Below are positions 1-28,326 of a stretch of 36,183 nucleotides of DNA, piece by piece (the first letter of the stretch is position 1; each line of letters begins with the position of its first letter). The notes under the pieces were generated by a model that had not been told where the DNA came from, did no database searches, and worked only from the letters and a program-made list of their open reading frames with translations. This DNA comes from Bacteroidota bacterium (GTDB lineage: Bacteria > Bacteroidota > Bacteroidia > UKL13-3), in contig CANGPW010000021.1 of NCBI GenBank assembly GCA_947456185.1, positions 1 through 36,183 on the forward strand, read 5' to 3'. The position numbers and the translations under genes were made by a program.

Positions 1-2046
1 ATAACTAAAAGTATTGTTTTCAAAACTTACTAAACCAAAAGCATTTTTACCTAAACCTTTTCCAAAGTTTGAAGCTACTTTGCCTTTTAATTTACCATAA
101 CCCATTGCCAAACCAATAGTTGAATTGGCTTGTCCTGGTTGAATCAAAATTGGTAAACCTTCTATTGTAGTTTTACCAGCTTTTAAAGTTACTACATCAC
201 CTTGTTTTAAGTTGAATTGATCAGCAGTTACTTTACCAATTGTTAAGTAATTATCCCAACATGCTTTACTAATAGGATCAGGCAATTCTTGTAACCAAGG
301 ATTGTTAGCATGTGTTCCATCGCCTAAACCAACTTTAGTGTACAGTTTAAGTTCAGTATTTTTTAAATTAGTAGTATAGTTTACTGTTGCTTTGTTAGCA
401 ATATCATTTGATAAAACTGCTGCAGACCTAGTGCTAGCCACTTTAGGTGAAGCAATAAAGAAACCGTCATGAAGTGCTTTATTCCAAGCTGTTTCACCAG
501 CCATTAAAATATTAGCTTCCCAATTTGATTTAATGTATGTGTAAACATCTGTGTTGTTACCTGCCCATTTCAATAAACTTTCTTGAACTTGGCGAGTAGA
601 AAATACATTCGTAATAGTTGGTTGTGTTAATCCAAAATATCCTAATTTAGGTTCTGAATCATTCCAACTTTCTAAATAATGATTATCTGGTGTTTGGTAT
701 TTACATAATTCACCCGTTTCATCGGTTGATGAATTGGTAGTTATAGTAGTTTTTACATTCTTTAATGCTTGTTTGAATTTATCAGCGTTATAATAACTGT
801 AAGCAGGATTTGTGTTATAGAATAAAACGGTATCTATAGCTCCTCTTTCCATTTCAGTAACAAATGCTTCAAAAGCTGCATCGTCACCACTTACTTGATT
901 TGAGTAATTATCTAAATCAATAGTTGTTCCAATATTTCCTAATAAACTATTGATACTAGCCACTAATAATTGATTATCGATATTATTAGAACCAGAAATT
1001 ACCAATGATTCACCTTTAGCCGCTAATAATTCTTTAGCTGTTAAATCAATTGAATTTAAAGCAATTTCGATAGTTGGAATTGAAAAAGTAGGTGCTCCAG
1101 TTGCAGTTGCAATTTTATTATATATACTTAATAATACTGCTCCTTCCATGGAAGGTTTAATAGGGAAACGGTAATCAGCATTTGAACCAGTAATTGATAA
1201 ATTACTTTCAAAATGCATGTGACGGCTCATTTTCTTATCTTCAGCTTTTCTGATTTTAGACCAACCTTTAGTAAATTCAACTGGAGAAATCCATGTTCCT
1301 AAAAAATCAGCACCAAAACTTACAATTACTTTTGCTTTTTCAAAGTTAAATGAAGGCACTACTGCTTTTCCAAATGCGCGTTTATTAGCTTCTATTAATG
1401 CAGCATATGAAATTGCTTCATATCCTACCACTTTAGTAGATGGATATTTAGCAGTAAATTCAGTAATAATTTTTTTGGTAGAAGGGCTAGTGTTAGTTCC
1501 ACTAACAATTCTAATATTTTTTGATGAAGCTAAAGCTTGTGAAATTTCTGTATCTACAGTAGCCCAAGTTGATTCATTATTATCTTTACGAGGCAATCTC
1601 AAACGTTCGTTATCATACAAACCTAAAAGACTTGCGTGACCAGTAGCACAAACACCACCTTTAAAAACTGGAGACTCAGCATTTCCTTCTATTTTTACAG
1701 GACGACCTTCTCTGGTTTTTACTAAAATACTACAGCCAGTTGAACATGCACCACAAGTAGTAGCATACCAATTTGGAATACCTGGAGTAATATTTTCAGG
1801 TTTAATAATGTATGGAATTGCATTTTTAACTGGAGTATTATTACAAGCTGCTAATGCAACAGCTGATATACTAAAGCCAAAATATTTCAAAAAATCACGT
1901 CTGTTTGATTGCATTTCACCATCAGAATCAGTTAATACTTCTTCCAAAGGAATTCCTTGTGCAAATTCATTCTTCTTATTAGCAACAAACTTTGGATCGT
2001 TGTTCAGTTCTTCTAAACCTTTCCAGTATTTATTTATATTTCCCAT
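1..2046 (-). CDS. actB: Alternative complex III subunit ActB, partial (C-terminal part beyond the left edge)
   Basis: The frame is open from the ATG at 2046 to the window edge, giving 682 codons without a stop, so the 3' part is missing. The N-terminus has a lysine-rich KYWKGLEEL segment, then a Tat-like RRDFLK motif before a hydrophobic stretch ending in AAC. This matches the variant Tat leader of Bacteroidota ActB proteins. It continues into a molybdopterin-oxidoreductase-type domain with a Cys motif CGACSTGC and a further Cys in GGVCATGH about 28 residues later. The visible end contains QPGQANSTIGLAMGYGK, typical of the end of this domain. In the family, ActB is a periplasmic subunit of the quinol:electron-acceptor oxidoreductase. 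Its second, ferredoxin-like half holds the well-characterised Fe-S clusters and would lie outside the window. It starts 56 bases after actA on the same strand, so the two are probably co-transcribed. Confident identification. Confidence 0.93.
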   Translation of the reverse strand, partial: MGNINKYWKGLEELNNDPKFVANKKNEFAQGIPLEEVLTDSDGEMQSNRRDFLKYFGFSISAVALAACNNTPVKNAIPYIIKPENITPGIPNWYATTCGACSTGCSILVKTREGRPVKIEGNAESPVFKGGVCATGHASLLGLYDNERLRLPRKDNNESTWATVDTEISQALASSKNIRIVSGTNTSPSTKKIITEFTAKYPSTKVVGYEAISYAALIEANKRAFGKAVVPSFNFEKAKVIVSFGADFLGTWISPVEFTKGWSKIRKAEDKKMSRHMHFESNLSITGSNADYRFPIKPSMEGAVLLSIYNKIATATGAPTFSIPTIEIALNSIDLTAKELLAAKGESLVISGSNNIDNQLLVASINSLLGNIGTTIDLDNYSNQVSGDDAAFEAFVTEMERGAIDTVLFYNTNPAYSYYNADKFKQALKNVKTTITTNSSTDETGELCKYQTPDNHYLESWNDSEPKLGYFGLTQPTITNVFSTRQVQESLLKWAGNNTDVYTYIKSNWEANILMAGETAWNKALHDGFFIASPKVASTRSAAVLSNDIANKATVNYTTNLKNTELKLYTKVGLGDGTHANNPWLQELPDPISKACWDNYLTIGKVTADQFNLKQGDVVTLKAGKTTIEGLPILIQPGQANSTIGLAMGYGKLKGKVASNFGKGLGKNAFGLVSFENNTFSY

Positions 2047-2102
2047 TTAATTTTTTTTCTTCTTTAAGTAATTTAAAAATTATTTCTGATCAATAGTTTG
2101 GA

Positions 2103-3359
2103 TTAATAATGGCATTTAGCACATTCCAATCCACCATTTTGAGCAACTGTAATAAAATCTTTGTTGCTAGCTTTTAAATCTTTGTGTAGTTTTTCGTAGT
2201 AATCATTGTTTGCAACGTCTACTTTAGCTTCACGGTGACAGTTAATACACCATCCCATTTGTAAACTGCGTTGCTGACTTACAACTTTCATAGTTTCTAT
2301 TGGACCATGGCAAGCCTGACATTCCACTTTACCAATTTTAACATGCTGTGCATGGTTAAAATAAGCATGGTCAGGTAAGTTATGAATTCTTACCCATTTA
2401 ATAGGTTGTTGTTTGAATCCAGCTATGTAGGTACCATTTTTTGAATCATAACCTACAGCATTATAAATTTTTTGAATTTCAGGTGAAACCTTACCATTGT
2501 ATTTTGCTTTTGCCTTAACATAAGCATGACAATTCATACATGTACTAGCAGAAGGTATTGATGCTTGTTTACCTTTATCAGCACTCGAATGACAATATTG
2601 GCAGTTAATTTTGTATTTGCCCGCATGTAATTCATGGGAGTAATTAATAGGTTGAACAGGCGCATATCCTTTTTGAACTCCTACTTTTGTTTGTCCGTAA
2701 TCATAACCATATAATCCTAAAACTACAGTTAGTAAAGCACCAACTGCTAAAGTTCCAACTACAGGATGTTTAACAAATAATTTAAAACGAGTAGATTTTT
2801 TATTTTGCTTCCAATGAATTTTTTTCTCTTCAGCTTCTTCAGGATATTTCTCTTCGTGAATTTTGTCTATTACTTTTCTGATTTTCATTAATATAAAAAT
2901 GATAATCAATAATACAATAGCAAAAATTAACAAACCAATTAGCAAACCTTCCGAATAGAAACCACCTTCAGCTTTTGCTGAACCAGTTGGTGTTCCATTT
3001 TCTACAGTTGTAGCAGCACCACCAGTTTTAATATAAGCCAAAATTGATTTGACTTGTTCATCTTTTAATTGAGGAAAAGCAGTCATTGCTGATTGGTTAT
3101 ACTCTTTGTAAAGTTTATTCGCATAAGCATCACCAGATTTTAAAACAGCAGATGAATTTTGTATCCACTTAATCAACCATGCTTCACTTTGGCGCTTATC
3201 AACGTCTTTTAAGGCTGGGCCTACAACTTTATCATTTATTGCATGACAAGAGGTACAATTAGCATTAAATAATTTTTCTCCTTCGGCTACATCAGCCATT
3301 GTTAACTTAGCTCCTAAAAAGAAAGCTGCTAGTAGAAATAGTAGTTTATTCAGTTTCAT
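2103..3359 (-). CDS. actA: Alternative complex III subunit ActA, hexaheme: monoheme cytochrome c fused to pentaheme domain
   Basis: A 418-residue membrane-bound cytochrome c of the quinol-oxidising alternative complex III. A signal peptide (about residues 1-22, cut near MADVAEG) is followed by a class I monoheme domain with CTSCH at 35-39 and a probable axial Met in SAMTAFP near 92. Two hydrophobic segments follow, at about 137-160 and 199-217. The C-terminal multiheme domain has five CxxCH sites: 253-257, 274-278, 347-351, 371-375 and 413-417. The last one lies at the extreme C-terminus. Six heme sites in all fit ActA with an extra N-terminal cytochrome c domain, a form I believe is usual in Bacteroidota. 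The gene precedes actB. It receives electrons from quinol and passes them within the complex towards a terminal oxidase. Start is ATG at 3359, required by the signal peptide. Confidence 0.93.
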   Translation of the reverse strand: MKLNKLLFLLAAFFLGAKLTMADVAEGEKLFNANCTSCHAINDKVVGPALKDVDKRQSEAWLIKWIQNSSAVLKSGDAYANKLYKEYNQSAMTAFPQLKDEQVKSILAYIKTGGAATTVENGTPTGSAKAEGGFYSEGLLIGLLIFAIVLLIIIFILMKIRKVIDKIHEEKYPEEAEEKKIHWKQNKKSTRFKLFVKHPVVGTLAVGALLTVVLGLYGYDYGQTKVGVQKGYAPVQPINYSHELHAGKYKINCQYCHSSADKGKQASIPSASTCMNCHAYVKAKAKYNGKVSPEIQKIYNAVGYDSKNGTYIAGFKQQPIKWVRIHNLPDHAYFNHAQHVKIGKVECQACHGPIETMKVVSQQRSLQMGWCINCHREAKVDVANNDYYEKLHKDLKASNKDFITVAQNGGLECAKCHY

Positions 3360-3382
3360 TTAATTTATTTACAAATTCTTTA

Positions 3383-3390
3383 CAAATCTA
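3383..3390 (-). promoter_or_regulatory. Putative -7 element of the actA-actB promoter
   Basis: Read on the minus strand this is TAGATTTG, a match to the Bacteroidota -7 consensus TAnnTTTG, 24 bases upstream of the actA ATG. I do not find a TTG at the expected 17-23 base spacing, so only half the promoter is supported. Confidence 0.35.
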
Positions 3391-3549
3391 TTGTTTATTG
3401 GTTATTTAGCCATACTGATTTAAATCAAGGGTAGCTTTTCCTCAATAATGGTGCGAATATAATTAGATTAATTTCGTGGGGAATACTGTTAATAAATAAA
3501 TATTATTTAGACAGATTCTAACTTAGGAATACTGAAAATGTAATGCTTT

Positions 3550-8558: not shown

Positions 8559-9683
8559 CTAAAAACCAACCTCAAATAATCCTTCATCGGAATATTTTAA
8601 TATATGTAAATAAGAGTTTTGTAATCCCGCAGTATTGTTTTTTTCTTTTAACAAATACCTATTTGACATAAGCGAGAAAGGAGCAATTTTGTTTAAATCT
8701 TTAAAACTTCCATTAGTTTGAGCAAAAGTTGAAATAGTAGTTATAAATTGATCATAGCCAACAAAGGCAAATTCATTGGGTTCTGTTTCATAATAATTTC
8801 TATACGTTTCAATGAATTTTTTTGTCAACAAATTCGAATAATCAATATAAAAGGGTGAAATAATATGCAAATTACATTTAAGCCAATATTCAGTATTAAT
8901 AATATTAAAATCTAATATTTTTCTTAATCCAAATGTGTTCATTTTAAAGGTATTGCTGGTATCTGCAATCATTTTTAAAGCAGCATTTATTTGGTTTTCA
9001 TCATCGCTTGCAATAAAAATAAAATTATCGTTTTCCTTACTTAAATTTTTATAAATATCGGTCACTTTTGCTAAATCAATTTGCTTCACTTTTAAAGGAA
9101 ATTCTGGTTTAACTATTTGCTTTAAATAGTTTGCCAATGATTTGTCGGATGCGTCTTTTCCGACTAAAATTATCAAATTTCCAATAGCAGATTTTTTGAT
9201 TAAGTAATTAACAAAGTAATCTGCATAATAAGTTAAATCAGGATAAGCCGAAATTGCTTTTTCATCATTTATTTTTGTTTTAGTAAAAGTAAATAGCGGT
9301 GAAAGATGAAATGCATTTTTTTTATTCTTGAAATGTTGCATCATTAATTGACCTTCTTTAATAACAGGACCTATAATAAAATCAGCATTTTGAACAGCAT
9401 CATTGTTCAATATTTTCTTAAACTTGATGGTATCTCTTTCTGTATCAAAAACAGTAATTTCAATGTTATAGCCTGCGTTTTTTAAACTATCAGTTGCAAT
9501 TAATAATCCTTGATAATATTCTCTACAAGCATTTCCTAATTCAGCATTTTTATGGTTTGGATTTTGGTTTATTTCCTCGGCACAATAAGGCATGAGCAAA
9601 GCAATTTTTATTACATTTTTTGTTTGAGCAAATGATTGAAAATAAAGTAAAAATAAACTAATTATTAAATATATTTTTTTCAT
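8559..9683 (-). CDS. Secreted periplasmic-binding-protein-like (type I) protein
   Basis: A 374-residue secreted protein with a clear signal peptide (MKKIYLIISLFLLYFQSFAQ, probable cut after AQ). The mature part resembles the type I periplasmic-binding fold of branched-chain amino-acid receptors. It begins IKIALLMPYC, then YYQGLLIATDSLKNAGYNIEI, VFDTERD, and ADFIIGPVIKEGQ near 104-117. The second lobe shows NLIILVGKDASD and FIFIASDDENQINAALKMI, and the end contains EFAFVGYDQFITTI. No permease or ATPase gene is adjacent, so it may be a stand-alone receptor or a cell-wall-related protein of the LpoA/LppC kind rather than a transporter component. Related Bacteroidota proteins often carry LysM domains; I see none here. 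It lies 50 bases upstream of the yhhQ-like gene on the same strand. Confidence 0.72.
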   Translation of the reverse strand: MKKIYLIISLFLLYFQSFAQTKNVIKIALLMPYCAEEINQNPNHKNAELGNACREYYQGLLIATDSLKNAGYNIEITVFDTERDTIKFKKILNNDAVQNADFIIGPVIKEGQLMMQHFKNKKNAFHLSPLFTFTKTKINDEKAISAYPDLTYYADYFVNYLIKKSAIGNLIILVGKDASDKSLANYLKQIVKPEFPLKVKQIDLAKVTDIYKNLSKENDNFIFIASDDENQINAALKMIADTSNTFKMNTFGLRKILDFNIINTEYWLKCNLHIISPFYIDYSNLLTKKFIETYRNYYETEPNEFAFVGYDQFITTISTFAQTNGSFKDLNKIAPFSLMSNRYLLKEKNNTAGLQNSYLHILKYSDEGLFEVGF

Positions 9684-9753
9684 TGTTTATGGTTGAAAAG
9701 TTCGAAGATAGATAAGTTATATGAGTTAAATACCCGCTACTATTAGTTTAATG

Positions 9754-10533
9754 TCAATTACCTTGCCCTTCGCTTACTTTCCATTCATCAAAACCAATTC
9801 CTTCCCAAGGCATTCCTCTTTCAAAATTATACATCCAAGGATAATGCTTTGTTCCTGCTTTTTCTTTTGATTCAATATCTCTAATTGAACAGAAAACTTT
9901 AGCCGGGGAACCTACTATTACTTGCTCATCTCCAAAGTTTTTATTAACAGTTGAATTTACTCCTACTAAACTATTTTTGCCAATAACTACTCCAGGAAGA
10001 ATAACGCTGTGAACGGCTATTTGAGTATAATCGCCAATGGTTGGACCAATACATACATTTGAAGGCGGATGAGGATCGTTAGTAAAAACTACATATGGGT
10101 AAATAAAAACAAAATTCCCAATGGTAGATTGCTGTCCAATATGCACATTGCTATGAAATCGACAATAATCACCTATTGTTACATAACCTTGAATATCCGA
10201 AAGTGTACCAATTGAAAAATTGGTTCCAACTTTTACATTTTCTCTAATAGTTACCCTGTGTCCTGAAACAAAATTTATACCAAATTCACTTCCTGCATAA
10301 ATAATGCAATGACTTCTGATAATCGCATTTTCTCCAATTTTGGTTACAGGATTGATGTAATTCTCATCAGAATAATAAGCATTTAATGGTTCTCCAATAA
10401 CACAATCATTACAAATAATTGAATTGTCACCAATTTCAACATGGTCATATATAGTTGTGTTATCGCCAATTCTAACATTTTTTCCAATCTTGGCTTTTTT
10501 ACTTATAGATACATTTCTATTGTTAAATTTCAT
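9754..10533 (-). CDS. Left-handed beta-helix (hexapeptide repeat) acyltransferase
   Basis: A 259-residue protein built almost entirely of hexapeptide repeats of the [LIV]-G-x4 type from residue 9 to about 205. Examples are AKIGKNVRIGDNTTI, VTIGDYCRFHSNVHIG, PTIGDYTQIAVHSVI and GVVIGKNSLVGVNSTV. The end of the helix carries the VIVGSPAKVFCSIRDI segment common to sugar and amino-sugar acetyltransferases. The loop with HPPSN after TNDPH and conserved histidines (GHRVTI, HSNVHIG) resemble WbpD/WlbB- and NeuD-like enzymes. These transfer acetyl groups from acetyl-CoA to nucleotide-linked amino sugars. The C-terminal 40 residues (YPWMYNFERGMPWEGIGFDEW) form an unfamiliar aromatic tail. It could supply surface-glycan sugars together with the CapD-like enzyme, but the two are not adjacent. 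Start is ATG at 10533. Confidence 0.85.
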   Translation of the reverse strand: MKFNNRNVSISKKAKIGKNVRIGDNTTIYDHVEIGDNSIICNDCVIGEPLNAYYSDENYINPVTKIGENAIIRSHCIIYAGSEFGINFVSGHRVTIRENVKVGTNFSIGTLSDIQGYVTIGDYCRFHSNVHIGQQSTIGNFVFIYPYVVFTNDPHPPSNVCIGPTIGDYTQIAVHSVILPGVVIGKNSLVGVNSTVNKNFGDEQVIVGSPAKVFCSIRDIESKEKAGTKHYPWMYNFERGMPWEGIGFDEWKVSEGQGN

Positions 10534-10581
10534 AGATATACTCTTTTTCTAATTAAAAAATCAATTTCATTTTTATTGATT

Positions 10582-10589
10582 CAAATATA
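10582..10589 (-). promoter_or_regulatory. Putative -7 element for the hexapeptide acyltransferase gene
   Basis: Minus-strand TATATTTG matches TAnnTTTG and lies 49 bases before the ATG. I find no TTG at the right distance upstream, so support is partial. Confidence 0.3.
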
Positions 10590-10706
10590 GTATTTTTTAT
10601 GAATTGTAAAATGACTGTATCAATGATTTTTTGATCAACAAAGTAACTAAGCAGTATACAACCAATTCAATTGTTTAAAAAAAATTAATTACATTGCACT
10701 GTAAAT

Positions 10707-11135
10707 ATGGTGAAATTATTCCTTAATTTATTTTGTATATTCATTGCTTTCGCGAGTAGTAAAAGCATTTTAGCTCAATCAGATAGTACTTCTGAAAGCG
10801 TAAAACTATTTACTCAAAAAGGGAATGCAAGTTATTATGCAAGAAAATTTGAAGGGCGAAAAACTGCCAATGGTGAAAAATATAGAAGACGATTATTAAC
10901 AGCTGCTCATAGAAAATTACCTTTTAATACTAAAGTAAAAGTTTCAAATCCAAAAAACGGTCGATGGGTAATTGTTAGAATAAATGACCGTGGACCTTAT
11001 CACAGAAAAAGAATCATTGATTTATCGGAACGTGCAGCTAGACATTTAGGTATTTTTGGTCGTGGATTTTCAAAGGTAATTATTCAAGAAGTGCCTGATA
11101 GTGCACAAGTTTGGATTAACCAATCACAGCATTAG
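10707..11135 (+). CDS. RlpA-like septal ring lytic transglycosylase (double-psi beta-barrel)
   Basis: A 142-residue secreted protein. The signal peptide ends near LAQSDS (about residue 23); there is no lipobox cysteine, unlike classical RlpA lipoproteins. The remainder is a single double-psi beta-barrel domain: ASYYARKFEGRKTANGE at about 41-57, TAAHRKLPFNTKVKV, then VRINDRGPYHRKRIIDLS with the conserved Asp-Arg-Gly-Pro, and RAARHLGIFGRG. RlpA cleaves denuded glycan strands of peptidoglycan; the key Asp and His of the family are present. No SPOR domain follows, so septal targeting by SPOR is absent and it may act elsewhere on the wall. It is the only plus-strand gene between two minus-strand blocks, so it must have its own promoter in 10534-10706; I could not assign one with confidence. 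Start is ATG at 10707. Confidence 0.87.
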   Translation: MVKLFLNLFCIFIAFASSKSILAQSDSTSESVKLFTQKGNASYYARKFEGRKTANGEKYRRRLLTAAHRKLPFNTKVKVSNPKNGRWVIVRINDRGPYHRKRIIDLSERAARHLGIFGRGFSKVIIQEVPDSAQVWINQSQH

Positions 11136-11164
11136 ATTGAAAGATTAGAAGATTAGAAAAAAAT

Positions 11165-12592
11165 TTAATTTATTTCATAACAGCCTATTGTGGGAGGATT
11201 AAACCTTGATTTATTTTCTAAATCAATATTAATTCCGGTGTTTATTTCACCAGCGCCAGTGCAAGGAGAACCTCCTTTTAGTTTATAATTTTTCCTATTG
11301 GCATCAACAAATGTTGGATCAAAATTTACTTGGTTAAAATCTATAGTTGAAATTTTTTGAATTAATTCATCTCTAAAAAGTAAACTTTTTATACTGTTAT
11401 TTTTAACATTAGAAGTTATTGTATTTCCATCCACATCTCTCACAAAATTAATTTCATCATCATTGCTTCCCCAAATTAAATTATTTCTTAAATTATAGCT
11501 TAAAGGAAATACTTTTATGATGGTACCACTTTCATTTCGGTATGGCGAATTAGTTATTGTAAATGTTGCATTTTTACGAGCAGAAGAATTCCCCCCTAAC
11601 GCTACAAAAGTATTGAATGTAAAATCATACCTGCCACCCAAATCACCCAAAAAAGTATATTGACCGCAATCGCTTATTAAATTATTTTCAGCCTTTATAT
11701 AGGCTGAGTAACTTAATAAACCTACTGCACCCATATCAAATATTTTAGTTTGGGTCAATTCTAGTTTTGGATTTGTGTTACTTGCTAGTGAATCAACCCT
11801 AATTCCAATAAATCCATTTTTTATAATTGCACCAATTATTTTATTATTGATACTCGTTGATAAAATATGAATTCCGTTCCATTGATTCGGAACTTCTTTG
11901 TATAAATCATCTAATCTATCACCTTGTAAAACTACAGGATTATCAACCGTACCAGCTATGTTTAAAGTTCCTGCCACATATATGGTTGAATTATTGTGAT
12001 TGTATATTTTCACACCAGGATTGATGGTTAAAGTAACTCCTTTTTCAACCAAAATATCATCGTAAATTACATAGGGTTTTGAGTCTGACCAAGTAGTATT
12101 GGTAGTAAAAGTCTCCTCTTTATAGTAATTGGCATTTAAAGCGTACGACAATAAAACAACACTTTGTTTATTTCCATTGGTATTGAAAATTAAATTTTCA
12201 GCTACCGAAAACTCATCCACCAAATCGGGTTTTATGTATGATTGAATAAATATATAAACACTGTCTTTTCCTCTAATTTCTAGATTTTCTATTTTCTGTA
12301 AATTTCCAGAACCCGGAATTCCATCGGCATTTAATTTAAATATGCTTAACAAATTTCCTTCTAATTCAATGGTAGTTTTTACAGCATTTTCGTTAGGATT
12401 TGAAACGATCAATCGCAAGGTAATAGACTTTGGAGTTGTTAATGAATTGGTGTCTTTTAAGGAGAATATAGTATCAAAATCAACTGTATCGGTACTAAAA
12501 TTAAGTGTTACAGGTGCAGAAGTAAAAACTTCGTTTTTCTTACAACTTCCTATAATGAAACTCACAACTATTAGCAAAAAAACGTATCTCAT
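11165..12592 (-). CDS. Surface/periplasmic lipoprotein with right-handed parallel beta-helix and choice-of-anchor Q-type C-terminus
   Basis: A 475-residue lipoprotein. A hydrophobic leader ends in FIIGSCKK, a type II signal peptidase site with Cys17. Residues 20-150 look like an immunoglobulin-like or DUF-type beta domain (TSAPVTLNFSTDTVDFDTIF). From about 160 a right-handed beta-helix begins, with VEKGVTLTINPGVKIY, NSTIYVAGTLNIAGT and NPVVLQGDR. This pattern recurs in pectate-lyase-like repeat proteins. The C-terminus (NYKLKGGSPCTGAGE, then PTIGCYEIN) matches the end of choice-of-anchor Q proteins. No catalytic residues of polysaccharide lyases can be recognised, so I assign no enzyme activity. 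It starts 20 bases downstream of the thioesterase gene stop and converges with rlpA, with only 29 bases between stops and no clear terminator there. Confidence 0.8.
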   Translation of the reverse strand: MRYVFLLIVVSFIIGSCKKNEVFTSAPVTLNFSTDTVDFDTIFSLKDTNSLTTPKSITLRLIVSNPNENAVKTTIELEGNLLSIFKLNADGIPGSGNLQKIENLEIRGKDSVYIFIQSYIKPDLVDEFSVAENLIFNTNGNKQSVVLLSYALNANYYKEETFTTNTTWSDSKPYVIYDDILVEKGVTLTINPGVKIYNHNNSTIYVAGTLNIAGTVDNPVVLQGDRLDDLYKEVPNQWNGIHILSTSINNKIIGAIIKNGFIGIRVDSLASNTNPKLELTQTKIFDMGAVGLLSYSAYIKAENNLISDCGQYTFLGDLGGRYDFTFNTFVALGGNSSARKNATFTITNSPYRNESGTIIKVFPLSYNLRNNLIWGSNDDEINFVRDVDGNTITSNVKNNSIKSLLFRDELIQKISTIDFNQVNFDPTFVDANRKNYKLKGGSPCTGAGEINTGINIDLENKSRFNPPTIGCYEIN

Positions 12593-19795: not shown

Positions 19796-21499
19796 TTAAT
19801 TACATTTATCCAACTCTACTTTTACAAAAGCCATTAACTGTTTGATATATGAAGCGGTAAAATTAAATTCAATACCTGCAGTTTTATATAACTCACCAAT
19901 GGTTTTAGTATAACCTAAACTTAAAGCTGCTTTGTATTGCGCTAATGCCGTTGGTTTGTCAGCAATATAATTTTTCCAAACTGCCAAAGCACCCAACTGT
20001 GCCATTCCATATTCAACATAATAAAAAGGCACTTCAAACAAATGTAATTGTTTTTGCCAAGTATAAGCTTGTATTTCTTCATAACCTTTCCAATCAACCA
20101 TTCCAGTACCAAACTCTTTGCTTAACGCTACCCAATACGTTTTACGTTCTTGCGCGGTATGAGTTGGGTTTGTATAAATCCAATGTTGGAATTTATCAAT
20201 GGTAGCAATCCAAGGTAAAATTCTAATTATTCCTTCCAAATGTTCTTCTTTGGCACGGTTAAAGTCTTCCTTATTGGTATAAAATTCATCTTGTCCATCG
20301 TAACTAATAAGTTCCATGCTCATGCTGGCTAATTCAGCTACTTCGCTCGGACAGTTTTTAAATGCTGCTAATTCTAAGTCTTTACTCAAAAACGAATGAA
20401 CAGCATGTCCGCCTTCATGCACCATTGTTTCCAAATCGCGGGTTGAAGAAGCAGCATTCATAAATATAAAAGGAACACTGGTTTCTGCCATTGGATAATT
20501 GTAACCTCCAGGCGCTTTGCCTTTTCTACTTTCTAAATCAAGGCGCTCCATATTGTCCATAGTTTCTATACACCATGCAAAATAATCATCTACTTTTCTA
20601 AAACATTTTACGGTTTTATCAATTAAATCTTTACCACTTGTAAATGGCTCTAAAGCCTCACGATTTTTGGTATCTACTTCCATATCCCACGGTTTTAAAT
20701 CGTGACCAAGTTCTTTTTTTCTCACTTCGTTAAATGCTTTTACCAGAGGTAAAACTTCTAGCTGAATGGCCTCATGAAAAGCAAAACAATCTTCTGGCTT
20801 ATAATCAAAGCGGCCAAGGGCAACAAACATATAATCCCTAAAGTTATTAAAACCTGAGTTTAAAGCTACTTTATTTCTTAGTATAATTAACTTATCAAAC
20901 AAATCATCTAACTCTTGTGCATGAGCGGCACGAACTTCATTTATTTTCAAAAATGCATCTTCACGTTTTGCCCTGTCAGTACTTTTCAAAAAATTAGCTG
21001 CTTGCTGAAGCGTTAATTCTTTGCCATCAATGGTAACGCTTAAACCACCAATTATACTTCCATACTTTTGACTTTCGGTGGCTATTTCGGCCATTAACGG
21101 TACGTTTTCTTCTCTGAATATTTCTATTTCTGACTTAATTCCTCTTAAGTAAATGAAGTATTTATCATGGTCTAATTCCTCCATGAATTTACATGCTACC
21201 AATTTTTTATTTAACTGATCTGTTATAGGTGAAATTTGTGGTTCAATTTCGGTTACAAAAAACAAATATGCTTGTTCCAATTCTTTGTTATTGCTATCAC
21301 ACGTCATTTTTACATAACGCCAAGCCAAGTCTTCACTCACAAAAGCTTCTAATTCACTTCTGTCAGATAGCCATTTTTCTAATGCTGATTTATCATTTAT
21401 TTCTCTAAATAATAATTGATTAAAGTAAGGGGACAATAAATCCCAAGCGGTAACTTTTAACTTATTAGGCAAAAATTTTCGGTTTATTATCGTAATCAT
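19796..21499 (-). CDS. M3-family oligoendopeptidase (PepF-like)
   Basis: A 567-residue zinc oligopeptidase. The zinc motif HEGGH is at 361-365, within TMVHEGGHAVHSF. The third ligand is most likely E389 in EVAELASMSMEL, 24 residues after the last His. Helical PepF-type N-terminal blocks are visible (WLSDRSELEAFVSEDLAWRY, RAKREDAFLKINEVRAAHA). The conserved GGYNYP(M)AETSVPFIFMN before the zinc motif and the late FYYVEYGMAQLGALAVW block are both typical. No signal peptide, so a cytoplasmic role in degrading short peptides is likely. Length is normal for the family. It is convergent with moxR and shares the terminator at 19735-19769. The 219 bases upstream (21500-21718) contain no gene and no convincing promoter. 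Start is ATG at 21499. Confidence 0.93.
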   Translation of the reverse strand: MITIINRKFLPNKLKVTAWDLLSPYFNQLLFREINDKSALEKWLSDRSELEAFVSEDLAWRYVKMTCDSNNKELEQAYLFFVTEIEPQISPITDQLNKKLVACKFMEELDHDKYFIYLRGIKSEIEIFREENVPLMAEIATESQKYGSIIGGLSVTIDGKELTLQQAANFLKSTDRAKREDAFLKINEVRAAHAQELDDLFDKLIILRNKVALNSGFNNFRDYMFVALGRFDYKPEDCFAFHEAIQLEVLPLVKAFNEVRKKELGHDLKPWDMEVDTKNREALEPFTSGKDLIDKTVKCFRKVDDYFAWCIETMDNMERLDLESRKGKAPGGYNYPMAETSVPFIFMNAASSTRDLETMVHEGGHAVHSFLSKDLELAAFKNCPSEVAELASMSMELISYDGQDEFYTNKEDFNRAKEEHLEGIIRILPWIATIDKFQHWIYTNPTHTAQERKTYWVALSKEFGTGMVDWKGYEEIQAYTWQKQLHLFEVPFYYVEYGMAQLGALAVWKNYIADKPTALAQYKAALSLGYTKTIGELYKTAGIEFNFTASYIKQLMAFVKVELDKCN

Positions 21500-21718: not shown

Positions 21719-22327
21719 TTATTTTATCAAGGCTAATCCTTCTAATGCCGAAGAATCGTTTGGTGCTATAAGCAACACTTTGTTAAATAATAGTTTTGCT
21801 TCTTTGTATTTTGCTAATCTATAATTTGTCCAGGCTAACATGTTTAAGCCGTTATATGTAAAAGGGTAAAGGTTTACCAGTAGTGAAAAACATTTATGTG
21901 CTTTTTCATATAATTTACCATTATAATAAATCATTCCCAATGCATATAAAGCATAACTATTTTGAGGATCAATTTTTAAAATGTTTTGATATTGAAAAGC
22001 AATATTATCCCACTCGCCCAAAATTGTAAGTGGATATATATAACCAAACTTTGCCTCTATTGAAAACGGCATTAATTTCATGGCTATTTCATAATATTGT
22101 TTGGATTCTTTTTGTAATCCAGCACAGTAATTTAACCAACCTAAACGAATATTTATTTCGTAAGAATTGTGGTTATATACTTCCATTATTTTAGAAATGG
22201 CTTGCGAATAATTAAATTTGCTTTCCAATTCTATGCTTGCAGCAAAAGCAATTTTAATTTTATCTTCTTGTGCATGAATTGAGTTAATTATTAAACTAAA
22301 TAATAGAATGAAGATAGATTTTTTCAT
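21719..22327 (-). CDS. Secreted tetratricopeptide-repeat protein
   Basis: A 202-residue protein with a signal peptide (MKKSIFILLFSLIINSIHAQ). The mature part consists of TPR-like helical pairs. The clearest are SYALYALGMIYYNGKLYEKA near 124-143 and GLNMLAWTNYRLAKYKEAKL near 156-175, with weaker ones at 30-60 and 60-95. TPRs mediate protein contacts; no catalytic feature is seen. It is five bases after the stop of the beta-barrel gene, which itself overlaps the urea-transporter/M23 gene, so the three are almost certainly one transcript and possibly one envelope assembly. There is no lipobox Cys, so the protein is expected to be soluble in the periplasm or outside the cell. Confidence 0.8.
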   Translation of the reverse strand: MKKSIFILLFSLIINSIHAQEDKIKIAFAASIELESKFNYSQAISKIMEVYNHNSYEINIRLGWLNYCAGLQKESKQYYEIAMKLMPFSIEAKFGYIYPLTILGEWDNIAFQYQNILKIDPQNSYALYALGMIYYNGKLYEKAHKCFSLLVNLYPFTYNGLNMLAWTNYRLAKYKEAKLLFNKVLLIAPNDSSALEGLALIK

Positions 22328-22332
22328 AGTAA

Positions 22333-23289
22333 TTAAAGGTTATATTTTATTCCTAAAAATAGTGAGTTAAATGAATAATTATTATTGGTCTTGTAATCTT
22401 GTTTGTGTTCATTTTGATAAATAATATACATAAAAATATTATTCGCAAATTCGTATTTAAGAATGAAATTAATTCTATCAAAAGTTTTATCTACTGAATT
22501 ATAAATTATATATCCGTCTTGATCTGAAAAATTACGAGCATTGGCATAAAAATAATCTGCATTTATTGACAATTCATCATTTATGATAAACGAAACAGAA
22601 GGTTTAATTAAGGTACTTAACAAATTATTATTACTAAAATGATATACTCCCAATCCAAAAATTAATGCTTCATTGTTTTTTACATCAAACAATAATTCAG
22701 CTCCTGATTGAAATTGGGTTTGCTTAACTTTTAAATTATTTAATTGACTATAAGCAAAGCAAGGTTTAATAATAAAATGTTTCCATTTATAAGTACTACT
22801 TCCTAACAAAAAAATATTGTTACTGCTTATGTATTCGGCAGGAATTAGTGTTGTTTGCATTGGAGGAAATACTATAGGTGCAGGCAATTCTTGAAATATT
22901 TTAGTATTGCTGTTTAAAAATGAAATAACTCCATTAAACTTTAATAATGCACTTTTTTTATATTCAAAATTAGCATAATAACTGTGTTGGGCTATAGTTC
23001 CCCACCACACGTTTTGTGAAATATAATTATATGCGTGAAACAATTGCAATTTGTTACTTAGTTGATGTTGTATACCAATTTGATTGGAAGTTAAATTTCC
23101 TACTGTATCGGTTTGATTGCTAAATTTTACACCTGACTCCATGTATATTTGATTGAACAAATTAGTTTTGCCTAATCTAAATTCATGGATTGGTTTTGAA
23201 TTTTCGCTTAAGTAATTTGCGTTCAAAAATGATTGCGCTTGCACTTTACAAACAAAAATAATTGAAAATATAATTATACTATTTCGCAT
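22333..23289 (-). CDS. Predicted outer-membrane beta-barrel protein of unknown function
   Basis: A 318-residue protein with a signal peptide ending KVQAQ (about residue 19). The mature part has repeated amphipathic strands of about ten residues with alternating polar and hydrophobic/aromatic residues. Examples are HEFRLGKTNLFNQIYMESGVKF, KLQLFHAYNYISQNV, FIIKPCFAYSQL, LSINADYFYANARNF and NNIFMYIIYQNEH. It ends in SLFLGIKYNL, like a closing strand. This is the composition of a 12- to 16-stranded outer-membrane barrel. It resembles YaiO-type barrels that occur with TPR partners, but I cannot confirm the family. Its ATG at 23289 lies inside the last codons of the urea-transporter/M23 gene (16-base overlap), implying translational coupling. 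No plug domain or TonB box is visible. Confidence 0.68.
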   Translation of the reverse strand: MRNSIIIFSIIFVCKVQAQSFLNANYLSENSKPIHEFRLGKTNLFNQIYMESGVKFSNQTDTVGNLTSNQIGIQHQLSNKLQLFHAYNYISQNVWWGTIAQHSYYANFEYKKSALLKFNGVISFLNSNTKIFQELPAPIVFPPMQTTLIPAEYISSNNIFLLGSSTYKWKHFIIKPCFAYSQLNNLKVKQTQFQSGAELLFDVKNNEALIFGLGVYHFSNNNLLSTLIKPSVSFIINDELSINADYFYANARNFSDQDGYIIYNSVDKTFDRINFILKYEFANNIFMYIIYQNEHKQDYKTNNNYSFNSLFLGIKYNL

Positions 23290-25475
23290 GTAGCTTTTAT
23301 AGTTTTGTTATGAAATAATACCTCAAATGATTGAATATTTCCTTCACTAATAGTGAAATTTGCTGATATAGATTTATTCATCGAAAAAACCGATTGGAGA
23401 TTTACTTGACTACTTAATAATATATTTCGAGGATATAAATAATCGTCAATTGATACATAGCTTAATAAATACTGCGCTTTTAAAGTAGTAGTAAAAGGCA
23501 AAAGAAAGTCGTTAAAAACTCGACTAAGTGGCTTAAAAACATCGTAAATTGGTAGTGAATCTTCTATTACCATATCTTGATAATAACTGAACAATACTTT
23601 ATGAACGCTGCAATAGAAATAATAAAGTAAGCTGTTTTTATTTCCTTCAAATGTGGTAAAATAAAACTTTGTTCCATCGTTAACAAACCAAGCCACCGAC
23701 TTGGTTTCATAGCAATAAATGTAAGAATGATTATTGATATCAGTAAATATTTCCCATTTAATAATACTGTTTTTACCATTTATATTAGTAATCCAATTTA
23801 TTTTTTTTCCTGGAATTAAATTAAATGCATTTTTTAATAAATTATTGATTGCAGCGTTGGCCACAATGTCATTTTCATTAGGAATTCCACTAGTTTTAAA
23901 AATATACTTTCCATCTACTTTGGTAATATAATTACTTAAAGGGTATTGAATAGTAGTTGCTGATAAAACTGCTGTGTTTTGTAATTGAAAATGAATATGT
24001 GGTTCAGGCGAACGCCCAGAACTTCCATTATTAGCAAGCATTTGACCTTTATAAACATAATCGTTCAGAGCTACTTTAAAGCTATCCTTTTTTATATGAC
24101 TAATTTTAGAAAACAACTGTTCTGCATGTTTAATAATGATGGTATTTCCCCAGTTTTGCTGCAGGTTTACATCTCCAATTAAGTTATCGTCTATTCCATC
24201 AATAATATCTATTACATAACCATCGGCAGGTGCTAAAACTGGAAGTGAATAACAATAATAATCTTCTAAATTATTACCAGGCAAACGAAATGTTTTTAGC
24301 TCATCGTCTTTTATCACAAAATCCCAAGCATACTGGTAATCATTTTTATGGGTTATGCTACCATTTTGTCCTTGAGAAATTTGCCATTCACCATAAAAAG
24401 GAAGTCCTATTTTGAAATAAACTTCATCATTAAACCTTTCCTTTTCATTCAGAAATCGGTATAAGTTTTTTTCAGGTGAAAATAATTGAACTTGCGTTAA
24501 TTTTAACTTATCGGCTTTCACCCTATAATATAAAAAATAAAGCACCATAATTACCATTATATTAAATGGCAATGACAATACAGAAAGCCCTAATAAACCA
24601 AATACTGATACTGAAGCAGCAATAATAATTGATATCATTGGTGCGGCAATAATTACTAATAAAAATGAGTAGGAATTTGCTAATAAAAAATATCCTCCAA
24701 TGGCAACAGCTCCCAAAATAAAGTTAAAACCAATAAAAGAATAATTCAACAAATTAACATCGCCTTTCAGTAAAGTAAAGAAATAATATCCGCTTAAAAA
24801 ACCAACAATAGACAATAAGAAAGCAATGCGAGAAAAAATTAATAAACCTATTACTATTAATGTACCAGCTATAATATTGTATTGAAAAATTATGGCACCC
24901 AAAGATTTTAAATATACATCTAACAAATGTGGCAATTCTATATTATCGTAAAAATGATATGCTTTTACCAAATCTGCGCCACCCAATTTTAACATTTCAT
25001 TGTAAACAAATATGCCTCTATCATTATTTATTAAAGTGGCAAAATGTGGAGTTGCTAATTGAATTAACCAAACAGCAAACAAAAAAGGTAAACTTAAATA
25101 AGGTAATTTTTTATTGGCTTGTAAGCCAGCAATAACAATGGTTAACACAAAAGTAATTAAACTGATAAAACCTACTAATAAAAACAATTGCCAACTTGGC
25201 TGAAAAGTATAACCTATAAATAAGCCAACCAATAAACTATTAAAACCATAATATCCTTTGGAAATATATGCTTGATTATAATTTAAAATTTGTGCAAAAA
25301 TATTAGTTAATACAACAGAAAGCAAACCATATAAACCTACATAAACATCAATAAAGGAAGCAATAAATACAAAAGCTGCAAGCCAATAACTATCAGCTAA
25401 AAACAACTGAGAATAACTATTTATTAAGCCATTTCCATGCAATTTAATATTGTATTTCAGGTTTATTTTTATCAA
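23274..25475 (-). CDS. Urea-transporter-fold membrane domain fused to M23 (LytM) metallopeptidase domain
   Basis: A 733-residue two-part protein. Residues 25-318 are a membrane domain with the internal two-fold repeat of SLC14-type urea channels. YYGFNSLLVGLFIG (75-88) is echoed by FIGFNFILGAVAIGG (247-261), and YLSLPF (126-131) by VLSLPF (299-304). Residues about 350-500 form a LytM-type peptidase. H376 and D385 occupy the first zinc-ligand motif (THKNDYQYAWD), VLAPADGYVI follows at 413-422, H460 is in SKISHI, and HIH at 493-495 lies in PEPHIHFQL. All four expected active-site positions are present, so the domain looks competent. A 230-residue C-terminal region with no recognised motif follows. 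Start is TTG at 25475, since no ATG is available. It overlaps the beta-barrel gene. Substrate and orientation are uncertain; see findings. Confidence 0.82.
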   Translation of the reverse strand: MIKINLKYNIKLHGNGLINSYSQLFLADSYWLAAFVFIASFIDVYVGLYGLLSVVLTNIFAQILNYNQAYISKGYYGFNSLLVGLFIGYTFQPSWQLFLLVGFISLITFVLTIVIAGLQANKKLPYLSLPFLFAVWLIQLATPHFATLINNDRGIFVYNEMLKLGGADLVKAYHFYDNIELPHLLDVYLKSLGAIIFQYNIIAGTLIVIGLLIFSRIAFLLSIVGFLSGYYFFTLLKGDVNLLNYSFIGFNFILGAVAIGGYFLLANSYSFLLVIIAAPMISIIIAASVSVFGLLGLSVLSLPFNIMVIMVLYFLYYRVKADKLKLTQVQLFSPEKNLYRFLNEKERFNDEVYFKIGLPFYGEWQISQGQNGSITHKNDYQYAWDFVIKDDELKTFRLPGNNLEDYYCYSLPVLAPADGYVIDIIDGIDDNLIGDVNLQQNWGNTIIIKHAEQLFSKISHIKKDSFKVALNDYVYKGQMLANNGSSGRSPEPHIHFQLQNTAVLSATTIQYPLSNYITKVDGKYIFKTSGIPNENDIVANAAINNLLKNAFNLIPGKKINWITNINGKNSIIKWEIFTDINNHSYIYCYETKSVAWFVNDGTKFYFTTFEGNKNSLLYYFYCSVHKVLFSYYQDMVIEDSLPIYDVFKPLSRVFNDFLLPFTTTLKAQYLLSYVSIDDYLYPRNILLSSQVNLQSVFSMNKSISANFTISEGNIQSFEVLFHNKTIKATCEIV

Positions 25476-25570: not shown

Positions 25571-26929
25571 TTATAGTTTAAAACTTTTTAAATATTCTGG
25601 AGTAATTTCTAAACTATTCATATATTCTAACGTTTCTTTTTTCCTAATTAAATGAGGTTTACCATCCATATCTATCATTACAATATTTGGTCTCATAGCT
25701 ATAAACTGCATCCATTGCGTCATGTTATATGCACCTACAGTGTGTACAACTACATTATCCCCTTTTTTCATTGGAGGTAAAGTTATATTTTCCCTGATTA
25801 CATCAATATTCATACACAATGGACCGTAAATTACAGAATCTTCAGTGTAATGACTAAATTCTTGAGCAGGTGAAATTTTATGTTCATACCAGAAAGAAGT
25901 GAACAAAATATTTACCCCAAAATCCATGATTGTAGCTTTACGTCCGTCACTTAAACGTTTGTTTGCCAAAACTGTTCCTAATAAAAAACCAGCCTCATCA
26001 ACCAAAGAACGACCACTTTCCAAAATTAATAATGGTAAGTCTTCTTTACTATATTCTGAGTTTAACAAAGCAGAACAAATTGCTTCAGCATAATCATCAA
26101 AAGTTGGAACTGTATCAGCACCCATTAAATATGAACCTTTTAAAGTATTGCGAGAAGCAAATCCACCACCCATGTCAATATATGTAATGTTTTTCCCAAA
26201 TTTAGATTTTATGTGGAAAGCTAAATCCGATAATTTAGTTGCTGCTAATGCATAAGCACTGGGCGTTAACATAAATGTACCTATATGAGTATGCAAACCA
26301 ATCAAATCCATTTTATCAGTTAATATAATTTTGTTGATCGCATCCCAAGCTTGTCCACTTTCGTAATTAAAACCAAACCGATCCCACATAGGATAAACTC
26401 CTGTATCCATATTAACACGAATGGCTACTTTTGGTCGTTTTTTCAATTCATCTGTCAGTTCTATAATTCTGTATAATTCATCTAAATGATCAATGTGAAT
26501 CATTGATTCATTATTGATTGCTAAAATCAAATCTTCATCTGTTTTATCAGGTCCATTAAAAATAATTTTATTTCCCGGAACTCCGTTTAATAATGCTTTA
26601 TTATATTCAAAACCAGAAACTACTTCAGACCAACTTCCTTCTTGATGAAAAACACTACAAATGGCATTATTATAATGAGTTTTATAGCTCCATGCAAACT
26701 GTACTTTTGGATAGCGAGTGGTAAAAGCACGCACTGCATCCTTGTATGTTTTTCTAATAGTTTGCTCACTCATTACAAATAATGGAGAACCAAATTCACC
26801 TATTAAATCCTTTACTTTTGCACCATCAATATTGGTAACAGGAGCATATTCTGTTCGAGTTCCGTACTTGTTCATAACGCCAGTATTTAATTTTTTTATT
26901 ACTGGTCTTTCATATCTAATTTTTTCCAT
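25571..26929 (-). CDS. Fold-III PLP-dependent decarboxylase, LysA-like but not typical diaminopimelate decarboxylase
   Basis: A 452-residue enzyme of the alanine-racemase-fold decarboxylase group (LysA/SpeA/NspC). The PLP lysine is K83 in FAWSYKTHYN. The phosphate-binding glycines are GGGFA (254-258), ESGR is at 304-307, and the C-terminal catalytic segment contains GPLCMNID (369-376) and GAYN (399-402). In diaminopimelate decarboxylase the Cys motif normally reads CE(S/G)xD. Here it is CMNID, losing the Glu that contacts the substrate's distal end. That argues for a different substrate, for example a modified amino acid or a product of the adjacent ligase. It is the third gene of a run: PqqD-like, ATP-grasp, decarboxylase, with 77 bases before it and a terminator after it. 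Start is ATG at 26929. It could act as a decarboxylase or, less likely, an epimerase. Confidence 0.82.
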   Translation of the reverse strand: MEKIRYERPVIKKLNTGVMNKYGTRTEYAPVTNIDGAKVKDLIGEFGSPLFVMSEQTIRKTYKDAVRAFTTRYPKVQFAWSYKTHYNNAICSVFHQEGSWSEVVSGFEYNKALLNGVPGNKIIFNGPDKTDEDLILAINNESMIHIDHLDELYRIIELTDELKKRPKVAIRVNMDTGVYPMWDRFGFNYESGQAWDAINKIILTDKMDLIGLHTHIGTFMLTPSAYALAATKLSDLAFHIKSKFGKNITYIDMGGGFASRNTLKGSYLMGADTVPTFDDYAEAICSALLNSEYSKEDLPLLILESGRSLVDEAGFLLGTVLANKRLSDGRKATIMDFGVNILFTSFWYEHKISPAQEFSHYTEDSVIYGPLCMNIDVIRENITLPPMKKGDNVVVHTVGAYNMTQWMQFIAMRPNIVMIDMDGKPHLIRKKETLEYMNSLEITPEYLKSFKL

Positions 26930-27006: not shown

Positions 27007-28053
27007 TTAAAGCTCTCCTATTGTTGAAATTTGTTCAAATTCTTTTAAATCTACAATCATATCGAACGAATAACGAATAAACATTTTACCAATATCATAT
27101 ACTTTATATGGCTCAACATTTTGGCCTAATGCTAGTTTTACTAATGCTTCTGGTTGGTTTTGACCACAGCCAGCAGCTAAATAAACCCAAGCTGGAAAAC
27201 GCGGATTTATTTCCAATAAATAATATTTATTTTCAGCAGTTTTAATAAATTCTAGTTCCATTCCTCCACGCCATTTTGAAGAAGAAATAACCCTATTTGC
27301 AATGTTTACCAACTCTTCATCATCTAATGAAATACCTGCCCAAGCTTTACCTTTATCAGTTATAAAAAGTTTTCGCATGGGTACTGAACTTATTGCATTT
27401 CCTTGGCCATCTCCTAAAGCAGTTACATTTACCTCACTTCCAAAAACATATTCTTGAATAATTATTGGCAGTCCCCATTTAGCACTTATTTTGTTAAAAT
27501 AATTGGCTACTTGTTCTGCATTATATGCAATATATGCATCGTAAAACTTTCCTTTTACAACCATTGGATAAGAAAATTCTTTGGAAATACTTTGAATTTC
27601 AGCAGTGCTAAACATCATTTTACTATAAGGAACATCTACTCTATGTTTTTCACCAAATTCATAAAGGTTTGCTTTATGTCTTTCATCAAATTGTTCCTGA
27701 GTTGGTAAAAACATACAAATACCCAAATCGGATTTTAGCAATGGTTCTATTTTCATAAAATTTGCTAATTCAGCATCAAAATTAGGAATAATTACATCTA
27801 ATTTTTCTTGATTATGTATATAATAAATTCGTTCTAACAAAGAATCTATTCCGGCACTTGGTAATGGTATTTGGTATGACTTATCTACCAAATCGTGCAT
27901 ATATAAACCTGGTTCTAAAGTTTCATAACTTAAACCAATAATTCTAATATCAAAATCCTTACTTTCTTTTAATGCTCTTATTACAGGAATACCAGGCCCA
28001 GGACTATCAATATTATTTAATCCTGATACTGCAACCGTTATTTTTTGTTTCAT
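27007..28053 (-). CDS. ATP-grasp carboxylate-amine ligase-like protein
   Basis: A 348-residue ATP-grasp enzyme when started at the ATG at 28053. A TTG seven codons earlier is possible but less typical, because KITVAVSGLNN, the first strand of the pre-ATP-grasp domain, begins right after the ATG. Numbering from that TTG, the ATP-contacting lysine is in PMVVKGKF (about 170-177) and the hinge is IIIQEYVFGSE (204-214). The metal-binding end reads MELEFIK (272-278) and LLEINPRFPAW (286-296), with the expected Glu and Asn. The N-terminal part resembles the carbamoyl-phosphate-synthase large-subunit-like group. These enzymes form an acyl-phosphate from a carboxylate and join it to an amine. It follows the PqqD-like gene after 24 bases. 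The substrates cannot be deduced. Confidence 0.82.
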   Translation of the reverse strand: MKQKITVAVSGLNNIDSPGPGIPVIRALKESKDFDIRIIGLSYETLEPGLYMHDLVDKSYQIPLPSAGIDSLLERIYYIHNQEKLDVIIPNFDAELANFMKIEPLLKSDLGICMFLPTQEQFDERHKANLYEFGEKHRVDVPYSKMMFSTAEIQSISKEFSYPMVVKGKFYDAYIAYNAEQVANYFNKISAKWGLPIIIQEYVFGSEVNVTALGDGQGNAISSVPMRKLFITDKGKAWAGISLDDEELVNIANRVISSSKWRGGMELEFIKTAENKYYLLEINPRFPAWVYLAAGCGQNQPEALVKLALGQNVEPYKVYDIGKMFIRYSFDMIVDLKEFEQISTIGEL

Positions 28054-28077
28054 AAAATTATTCTTAGGTTTCAAAAA

Positions 28078-28326
28078 TTATTCAATTTCTTCAGCTACTT
28101 GATTAGTTTGTAACATCATTACAAAATCGTAATAATCTTTTTCAAAAGTTGAATCATCGGTCATGTATTTGCTTAAAATATATTTGCGTATTTCATCTTT
28201 GCTTTTCTCATCTTTAAGCATCCTGATTATTTCTAAGCCAATCGGATTAGTGCTAAAAGAATCTCCTGAAGTTGGATTAAAAATAAACCCAGATTCGCTA
28301 ATAGCTACATTTTTTTTTATTTTCAT
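28078..28326 (-). CDS. PqqD-family peptide-binding protein
   Basis: An 82-residue protein of the PqqD-like winged-helix family. It begins with a beta hairpin (KKNVAISESGFIFNPTSGDSF), then a helix STNPIGLEIIRMLKDEKS, then SKDEIRKYILSKYMTDDSTF and a last helix DYYDFVMMLQTNQ. This is the order of a RiPP recognition element, in which strand 3 and helix 3 bind a leader peptide. It is first in a minus-strand run with ATP-grasp and a PLP decarboxylase. No small precursor-like gene is visible in the 143 bases upstream or in the gaps downstream, so its partner may be encoded elsewhere, or it may present another protein. Start is ATG at 28326. Confidence 0.8.
   Translation of the reverse strand: MKIKKNVAISESGFIFNPTSGDSFSTNPIGLEIIRMLKDEKSKDEIRKYILSKYMTDDSTFEKDYYDFVMMLQTNQVAEEIE

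Follow-up and report, generated by a model that had tools for sequence, protein, structure and literature searches.

How can a membrane channel of the urea transporter (UT) fold and a peptidase of a family known for cutting peptidoglycan be used by a bacterium as one polypeptide? This question is raised by a stretch of 36,183 nucleotides (contig CANGPW010000021.1, positions 1 to 36,183, of assembly GCA_947456185.1; Bacteroidota bacterium, Bacteroidia, UKL13-3), the whole of which is called the window here, and in which a gene on the minus strand (23274..25475; 733 amino acids, TTG start) joins an SLC14-type channel to an M23-type zinc peptidase. A first, sequence-only reading of this DNA had seen the channel fold and the peptidase in one frame and had proposed either a solute flux coupled to wall remodelling or a membrane part serving as anchor with a different solute; it was silent on the strand, on the conserved operon, on the C-terminal domain and on the problem posed by the topology. 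In the following we describe that the fusion is genuine, that its role as the membrane component of an uncharacterised, phylum-conserved operon is well supported, and that its peptidase domain is predicted to lie in the cytosol, and we put forward a tentative proposal for its function in a small-molecule pathway.

Searches against Pfam and structure comparisons with Foldseek, both of which recovered the two folds, confirm that the protein combines a genuine SLC14/UT channel with an M23 peptidase domain. The UT profile PF03253 matches residues 18-314 (24534..25424, minus strand) with 182 bits (E 1.6e-53, cut-off 25, profile positions 5-290 of 292; 185 bits in the genome search), and Peptidase_M23 (PF01551) matches residues 412-501 with 46.8 bits (E 3.4e-12, cut-off 28.7). 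The two-fold channel repeats quoted in the sequence-only reading are located at GFNSLLVG (77-84) and GFNFILGA (249-256) and at YLSLPF (126-131) and VLSLPF (299-304). The peptidase residues that it listed are present as well in a domain of about residues 352-502 (23970..24422, minus strand): H376 and D385 are found upstream of the Pfam stretch, H460, H493 and H495 inside it, and all five are invariant in the 51 fused sequences and loci on which the family comparisons of invariance, charge, pore and neighbours are based. By analogy with LytM-type M23 enzymes, H376, D385 and H495 would be the zinc ligands and H460 and H493 the catalytic residues. An AlphaFold2 model of the whole fusion, built with 49 family sequences, reached a predicted local distance difference test score (pLDDT) of 90.7 and a predicted template modelling (TM) score of 0.83; in Foldseek it matched the urea transporters dvUT, UT-A and UT-B (3k3g/3me1/4ezc) with E values of about 1e-13 and target TM scores of 0.78-0.86, and M23 domains with target TM scores of up to 0.76. 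Compared with LytM/M23 metallopeptidases such as DipM, Csd1/Csd2, EnpA and lysostaphin, the fusion shares the H..D..H..HxH motif and the fold but differs in an H-x8-D spacing where H-x3-D is usual, in its predicted cytosolic face, in the attached channel and in its haloarchaeal relatives. The remaining C-terminal β-rich domain (residues 533-733; 23277..23879, minus strand) matched no family in the Pfam search; modelled alone by AlphaFold it reached a pLDDT of 91.9, and Foldseek found a weak resemblance to half-barrels of the LolA/LolB/RseB type (best E 2.2e-3, TM score about 0.3).

The fusion is not a peculiarity of one assembly. A full-length version was found in 25 of 58 relatives searched (35-94% identity), and among 395 genomes of the phylum 44 carry a UT over the cut-off, 32 of them in a frame of about 690-770 amino acids; with one short and one split form added, the fusion is counted in 34 of the 395, and the remaining UTs are about 300 amino acids long and stand alone. 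A search of plasmids yielded no full-length UT–M23 fusion, and one scan of genome contigs returned close relatives only. Because about 50 sampled Bacteroidota genomes thus share the architecture, a frameshift or a mis-joined gene, which the sequence-only reading had named as a possible refutation, can be ruled out. The short form (L084 in genome G309, 1810-3408; 532 amino acids) keeps the M23 motif and lacks the C-terminal β domain. In this single case, neither a barrel gene nor a gene for a tetratricopeptide repeat (TPR) protein adjoins the fusion, from which a link between the C-terminal domain and export genes is possible. The split form (L109 in G062, 8944-11198) is the sole member with its UT and M23 halves in overlapping frames; its frame breaks at a run of seven T, where sequencing error, slippage and a real split are indistinguishable, and it was therefore dropped as proof of a cytosolic M23 domain. 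In one single-contig genome (G178:C1), the operon is seen at both ends with identical matches of its ATP-grasp gene and with one UT in two frames, probably because the assembly is circular and its overlapping ends were not collapsed. In an M23 tree, 49 of the 51 fused domains form one group while L084 and L085 were unplaced at low support, a pattern consistent with a single fusion event. A function of the fusion or the operon is not described in the literature searched, which leaves out most subscription journals and to this extent agrees with the sequence-only reading; the UT plus M23 architecture is presumably listed in public domain databases.

On which side of the membrane the peptidase resides is decisive for what it can do. 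SLC14 channels consist of inverted repeats with both termini on the same side, which is intracellular in UT-A (PMC12649947). Across the fusion family, a mean of 9.25 lysine and arginine residues is found on the loops of the side of the N- and C-terminus vs 1.78 on the opposite loops, or 6.96 vs 0.37 if only short loops are counted; the sign of this bias is identical in 51/51 sequences (N-in/C-in), and it recurs in nine stand-alone Bacteroidota UTs, several of which are urease-linked. In the fusion protein no signal peptide was seen, the stop-to-stop frame of 736 amino acids leaves no N-terminal space for a further transmembrane segment, and beyond residue 345 no stretch reaches transmembrane-level hydrophobicity. 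Because of the charge bias, the missing signal peptide and the lack of an additional transmembrane segment, the M23 and C-terminal domains are very probably exposed on the cytosolic face, and this is not the extracytoplasmic location expected of an M23 enzyme hydrolysing peptidoglycan. As a separate observation, four M23-domain relatives from Thermus, haloarchaea and a Streptomyces plasmid, the last adjoining acyl carrier protein and ketoacyl synthase genes, are hydrophobic in their N-terminal part and carry basic residues immediately ahead of the M23 domain (L130, 2201-3160; L131, 2186-3112; L132, 2060-3136; L133, 2471-3298), and a wider group of cytosol-facing M23 proteins may exist.

The genes around the fusion are conserved in a fixed order on one strand, with gaps that are mostly overlapping or short. 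In the window this operon comprises, all on the minus strand, a PqqD-like protein (28078..28326; 82 amino acids, PF05402 1.3e-7), an ATP-grasp ligase of the PRK12767 type (27007..28074; 355 amino acids, Pfam ATPgrasp_Ter / ATP-grasp_3), a pyridoxal phosphate (PLP)-dependent decarboxylase of the alanine-racemase fold resembling FslC, BtrK and LysA (25571..26929; 452 amino acids, PF02784/PF00278, motif GPLCMNID), the UT–M23 fusion, a predicted outer-membrane β-barrel protein (22333..23289; 318 amino acids) whose gene overlaps the end of the fusion gene by 16 bp, and an exported TPR protein (21719..22327; 202 amino acids, TPR_2 4.6e-13, signal-peptide-like N-terminus). The barrel call is based on inspection of a signal-peptide-like N-terminus and a barrel-like sequence and on a variant with a weak OmpG-porin match, while the protein of the window itself had no match in Pfam; in one sub-group of fused loci the barrel and TPR genes are reversed. 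ATP-grasp and decarboxylase genes accompany the fusion in 51/51 loci, TPR in 48/51 and the barrel in 46/51, and a search for small open reading frames found the PqqD-like gene in at least 46 of the 51. At E ≤ 1e-60, the ATP-grasp profile detects exactly the same 34 of 395 phylum genomes as the fusion, and among the first 35 relatives, too, the two occur in an identical set of 17. The sequence distances of ATP-grasp and decarboxylase correlate with r 0.93, and those of either with the UT–M23 parts with 0.74-0.87. Upstream of the PqqD gene, inspection revealed a regulator that combines an HMA-like part with an AraC-type helix-turn-helix in six loci (L063, L065, L067, L068, L066, L061) and anti-sigma-like and Spy/CpxP-like genes in four others, a possible hint that metals or envelope stress control the operon. 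Just downstream of the TPR gene, the window carries on the same strand an M3-family oligoendopeptidase (19796-21499; TIGR02289, 532 bits), which is not kept beside the operon in most relatives.

What the partner enzymes may do can be read from their relatives. The nearest solved relative of the decarboxylase is the N-citrylornithine decarboxylase FslC (7kh2, 2.5e-54); LysA-type enzymes and BtrK come next. FigC/FslC, BtrK and MccE form a clade of enzymes for amino acids whose side chain bears an acyl group or is linked to a carrier or a peptide-nucleotide (PMC7857480). The operon enzyme shares CM-x-x-D with FslC, but its partners here are an ATP-grasp ligase and a PqqD-like protein and not a synthetase of nonribosomal peptide synthetase-independent siderophores (NIS) or an acyl carrier protein, as in the clade that also includes SbnH. 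It is not the housekeeping LysA, since it scores 214 bits against TIGR01048, below the cut-off of 297.9, and a separate lysA in the same genome (G000:C46) scores 367.5 bits, above it. The PqqD-like protein matches TbiB1, the recognition element of a lasso peptide (8.5e-4), so that the recognition element (RRE) expected in a cluster for ribosomally synthesized and post-translationally modified peptides (RiPPs) is present; a LysW-like carrier function with a conserved C-terminal glutamate was dropped for this protein, since PqqD C-termini vary. Taken together, the partners fit a scheme in which an amino acid would be ligated by the ATP-grasp enzyme, decarboxylated while attached and then released. 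Such a logic is known from butirosin, in which BtrJ has the ATP-grasp role. With BtrJ–BtrK–BtrI the operon shares the combination of an ATP-grasp enzyme and a BtrK-type decarboxylase acting on a tethered amino acid; here, no acyl carrier protein was found, a PqqD-like protein takes its place, and the peptidase–channel fusion is a possible release step. Graspetide loci, that is RiPP loci with ATP-grasp enzymes, contain peptidases and no precursor in branches 7 and 8 (PMC8939145), and the operon likewise combines an ATP-grasp enzyme with a linked peptidase and has no precursor detectable nearby; it differs by its PRK12767-type ATP-grasp, the linked PLP decarboxylase, the M23 domain and the UT channel, and the main text of that source uses neither the word decarboxylase nor M23.

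The channel itself departs from its relatives. While the fusion resembles SLC14 and bacterial UTs (dvUT 3k3g, UT-B 4ezc; PF03253) in its full fold, two-fold repeat and predicted topology, and has the PE-x-N motif after the last transmembrane segment in common with vertebrate UT-A, it differs by about 420 extra residues (M23 plus β domain), by pore changes, by the absence of urease linkage and by its biosynthetic operon. At the positions 23/128/194/197/301, assigned from the alignment and not from structure, stand-alone UTs have Q-T-E(Q)-F-T, whereas the fusion has Q-S-A-F-S (Q23 kept in 42/51, S128 in 46/51 and A194 in 36/51); position 194, Glu or Gln in stand-alone UTs, is occupied by Ala, Leu or Ser, and Thr is replaced by Ser128 and Ser301, so that the canonical set of Gln, a Glu/Gln ladder and mid-pore Thr is incomplete. 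Urease was found in 6/10 genomes with stand-alone UTs, in five of which it is encoded 1-7 kb from the UT gene (the UTs L103, L104, L110, L111 and L113, about 300 amino acids long, lie near urease alpha genes and form a clear contrast set), but in only 1/55 fusion genomes tested, there on another contig. Frames of some 560 amino acids that scored about 25 bits were taken to be other amidohydrolases in this count. A search of the window's own genome for urease found none. Because of the absent urease link and the altered pore residues, the fused channel is suggested to carry a different or broader solute than urea, and of the anchor alternative in the sequence-only reading it is the different solute that is favoured.

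From these data we propose that a biosynthetic operon of six genes has in UT–M23 its membrane component for release and exit. With the PqqD-like protein as its guide, the ATP-grasp ligase would couple an amino acid to a partner, either an acyl group or a peptide/carrier; the PLP decarboxylase would, like FslC and BtrK, act on the side-chain-derivatised amino acid; the M23 domain, whose place at the inner membrane, facing the cytosol, is well supported, would hydrolyse an amide bond and free a small product; the fused SLC14-type pore with its altered selectivity residues would let this small neutral product out to the periplasm; and passage across the outer membrane would fall to the barrel and to the exported TPR protein. 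The topology of the fusion and its place in the pathway have good support, the chemistry is conjectural, and we consider a release-and-exit function slightly short of an even bet. The fuller proposal of an undescribed, Bacteroidota-wide biosynthesis-and-release system, in which a cytosolic M23 domain would pass its product straight into the urea-type channel to which it is fused and which would have been put to a new use, is put forward with a little more reserve.

Several observations weigh against this proposal. By inspection, the stand-alone M23 proteins most closely related to the fused domain, which occur in the same families, appear exported: one (L117, 653-1619) has a signal peptide, and five (L118-L122) have transmembrane bundles with a charge distribution placing M23 outside, so that the M23 subfamily of the fused domain seems to occur on both membrane faces. 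The C-terminal domain is weakly similar to folds of the periplasmic proteins LolA and RseB, and the short form, which lacks this domain and the barrel and TPR genes, could mean that the domain works with periplasmic partners. Moreover, the search for a precursor peptide found no conserved small open reading frame besides PqqD within 3 kb, the C-terminus of the PqqD-like protein is not conserved, and the narrow pore of UTs would admit no more than a very small product.

Among the other explanations, the soluble part might be no working peptidase but serve the channel as a cytosolic domain for regulation or sensing that responds to a small peptide or to zinc. M23 and EIIA-Glc of the phosphotransferase system have a duplicated-hybrid fold in common, and the soluble part can be likened to the EIIA domain carried by the lactose permease LacS. 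The cytosolic topology, the single polypeptide in nearly all members and the presence of related membrane-anchored M23 proteins in haloarchaea, which have no murein, are in line with such a role. Against it stand the invariance of the five catalytic and zinc residues and the fact that the M23 part is more conserved across the family than the channel (52% vs 36% mean identity), which favours catalysis. We therefore regard a mere sensing role as unlikely.

Somewhat less probable still is that the channel moves urea or a similar cytosolic amide, for example from arginase or agmatinase, with a compound akin to polyamines being processed by the enzymes of the operon. The SLC14 fold, two arginase-family genes in the window's own genome and a decarboxylase of the ornithine/diaminopimelate superfamily would agree with this. 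Yet the genome without urease and the replacement of Glu/Gln by Ala and of Thr by Ser in the pore speak against it, the decarboxylase motif CMNID is like that of FslC (CMQHD) and unlike that of ornithine decarboxylases, and neither the M23 domain nor the PqqD-like protein would be accounted for.

The coupling of solute flux to wall remodelling, with a periplasmic M23 domain cutting peptidoglycan and the UT as channel or anchor, fares slightly worse again. M23 enzymes of known substrate are mostly murein hydrolases, and the exported stand-alone relatives, the LolA/RseB-like C-terminal domain and the exported barrel and TPR partners point in this direction. But it requires a UT inverted with respect to known UTs, contrary to the charge bias of the whole family and of the stand-alone UTs; the M23 domain is predicted to face away from cross-linked murein; and the genes strictly linked to the fusion code for two biosynthetic enzymes, a ligase and a decarboxylase, and not for enzymes of the wall. 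As first stated, the coupling is thus improbable. Least of all do we expect a metallophore-like compound, with the barrel in its uptake or release and M23 and channel processing it, since the kinship to the siderophore-pathway enzyme FslC and the metal- or envelope-stress-like regulators seen by inspection upstream in some loci (HMA plus AraC-type, c8; Spy/CpxP-like, c23) face a conserved gene set with neither NIS synthetase nor TonB receptor and a siderophore that would not fit a UT pore.

We know of no earlier cytosolic biosynthetic role of an M23 peptidase and of no SLC14-fold exporter of a pathway product; if the release-and-exit proposal is true, the fusion would, to our knowledge, be the first of both. 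Both halves belong to well-studied families, and topology and operon suggest a use known for neither. The system bears on two questions, namely whether an SLC14 fold can transport anything but urea and whether an M23 peptidase can take part in biosynthesis in the cytosol, and as the operon is compact, phylum-wide, strictly co-occurring and found in near-complete genomes, its product could be findable.

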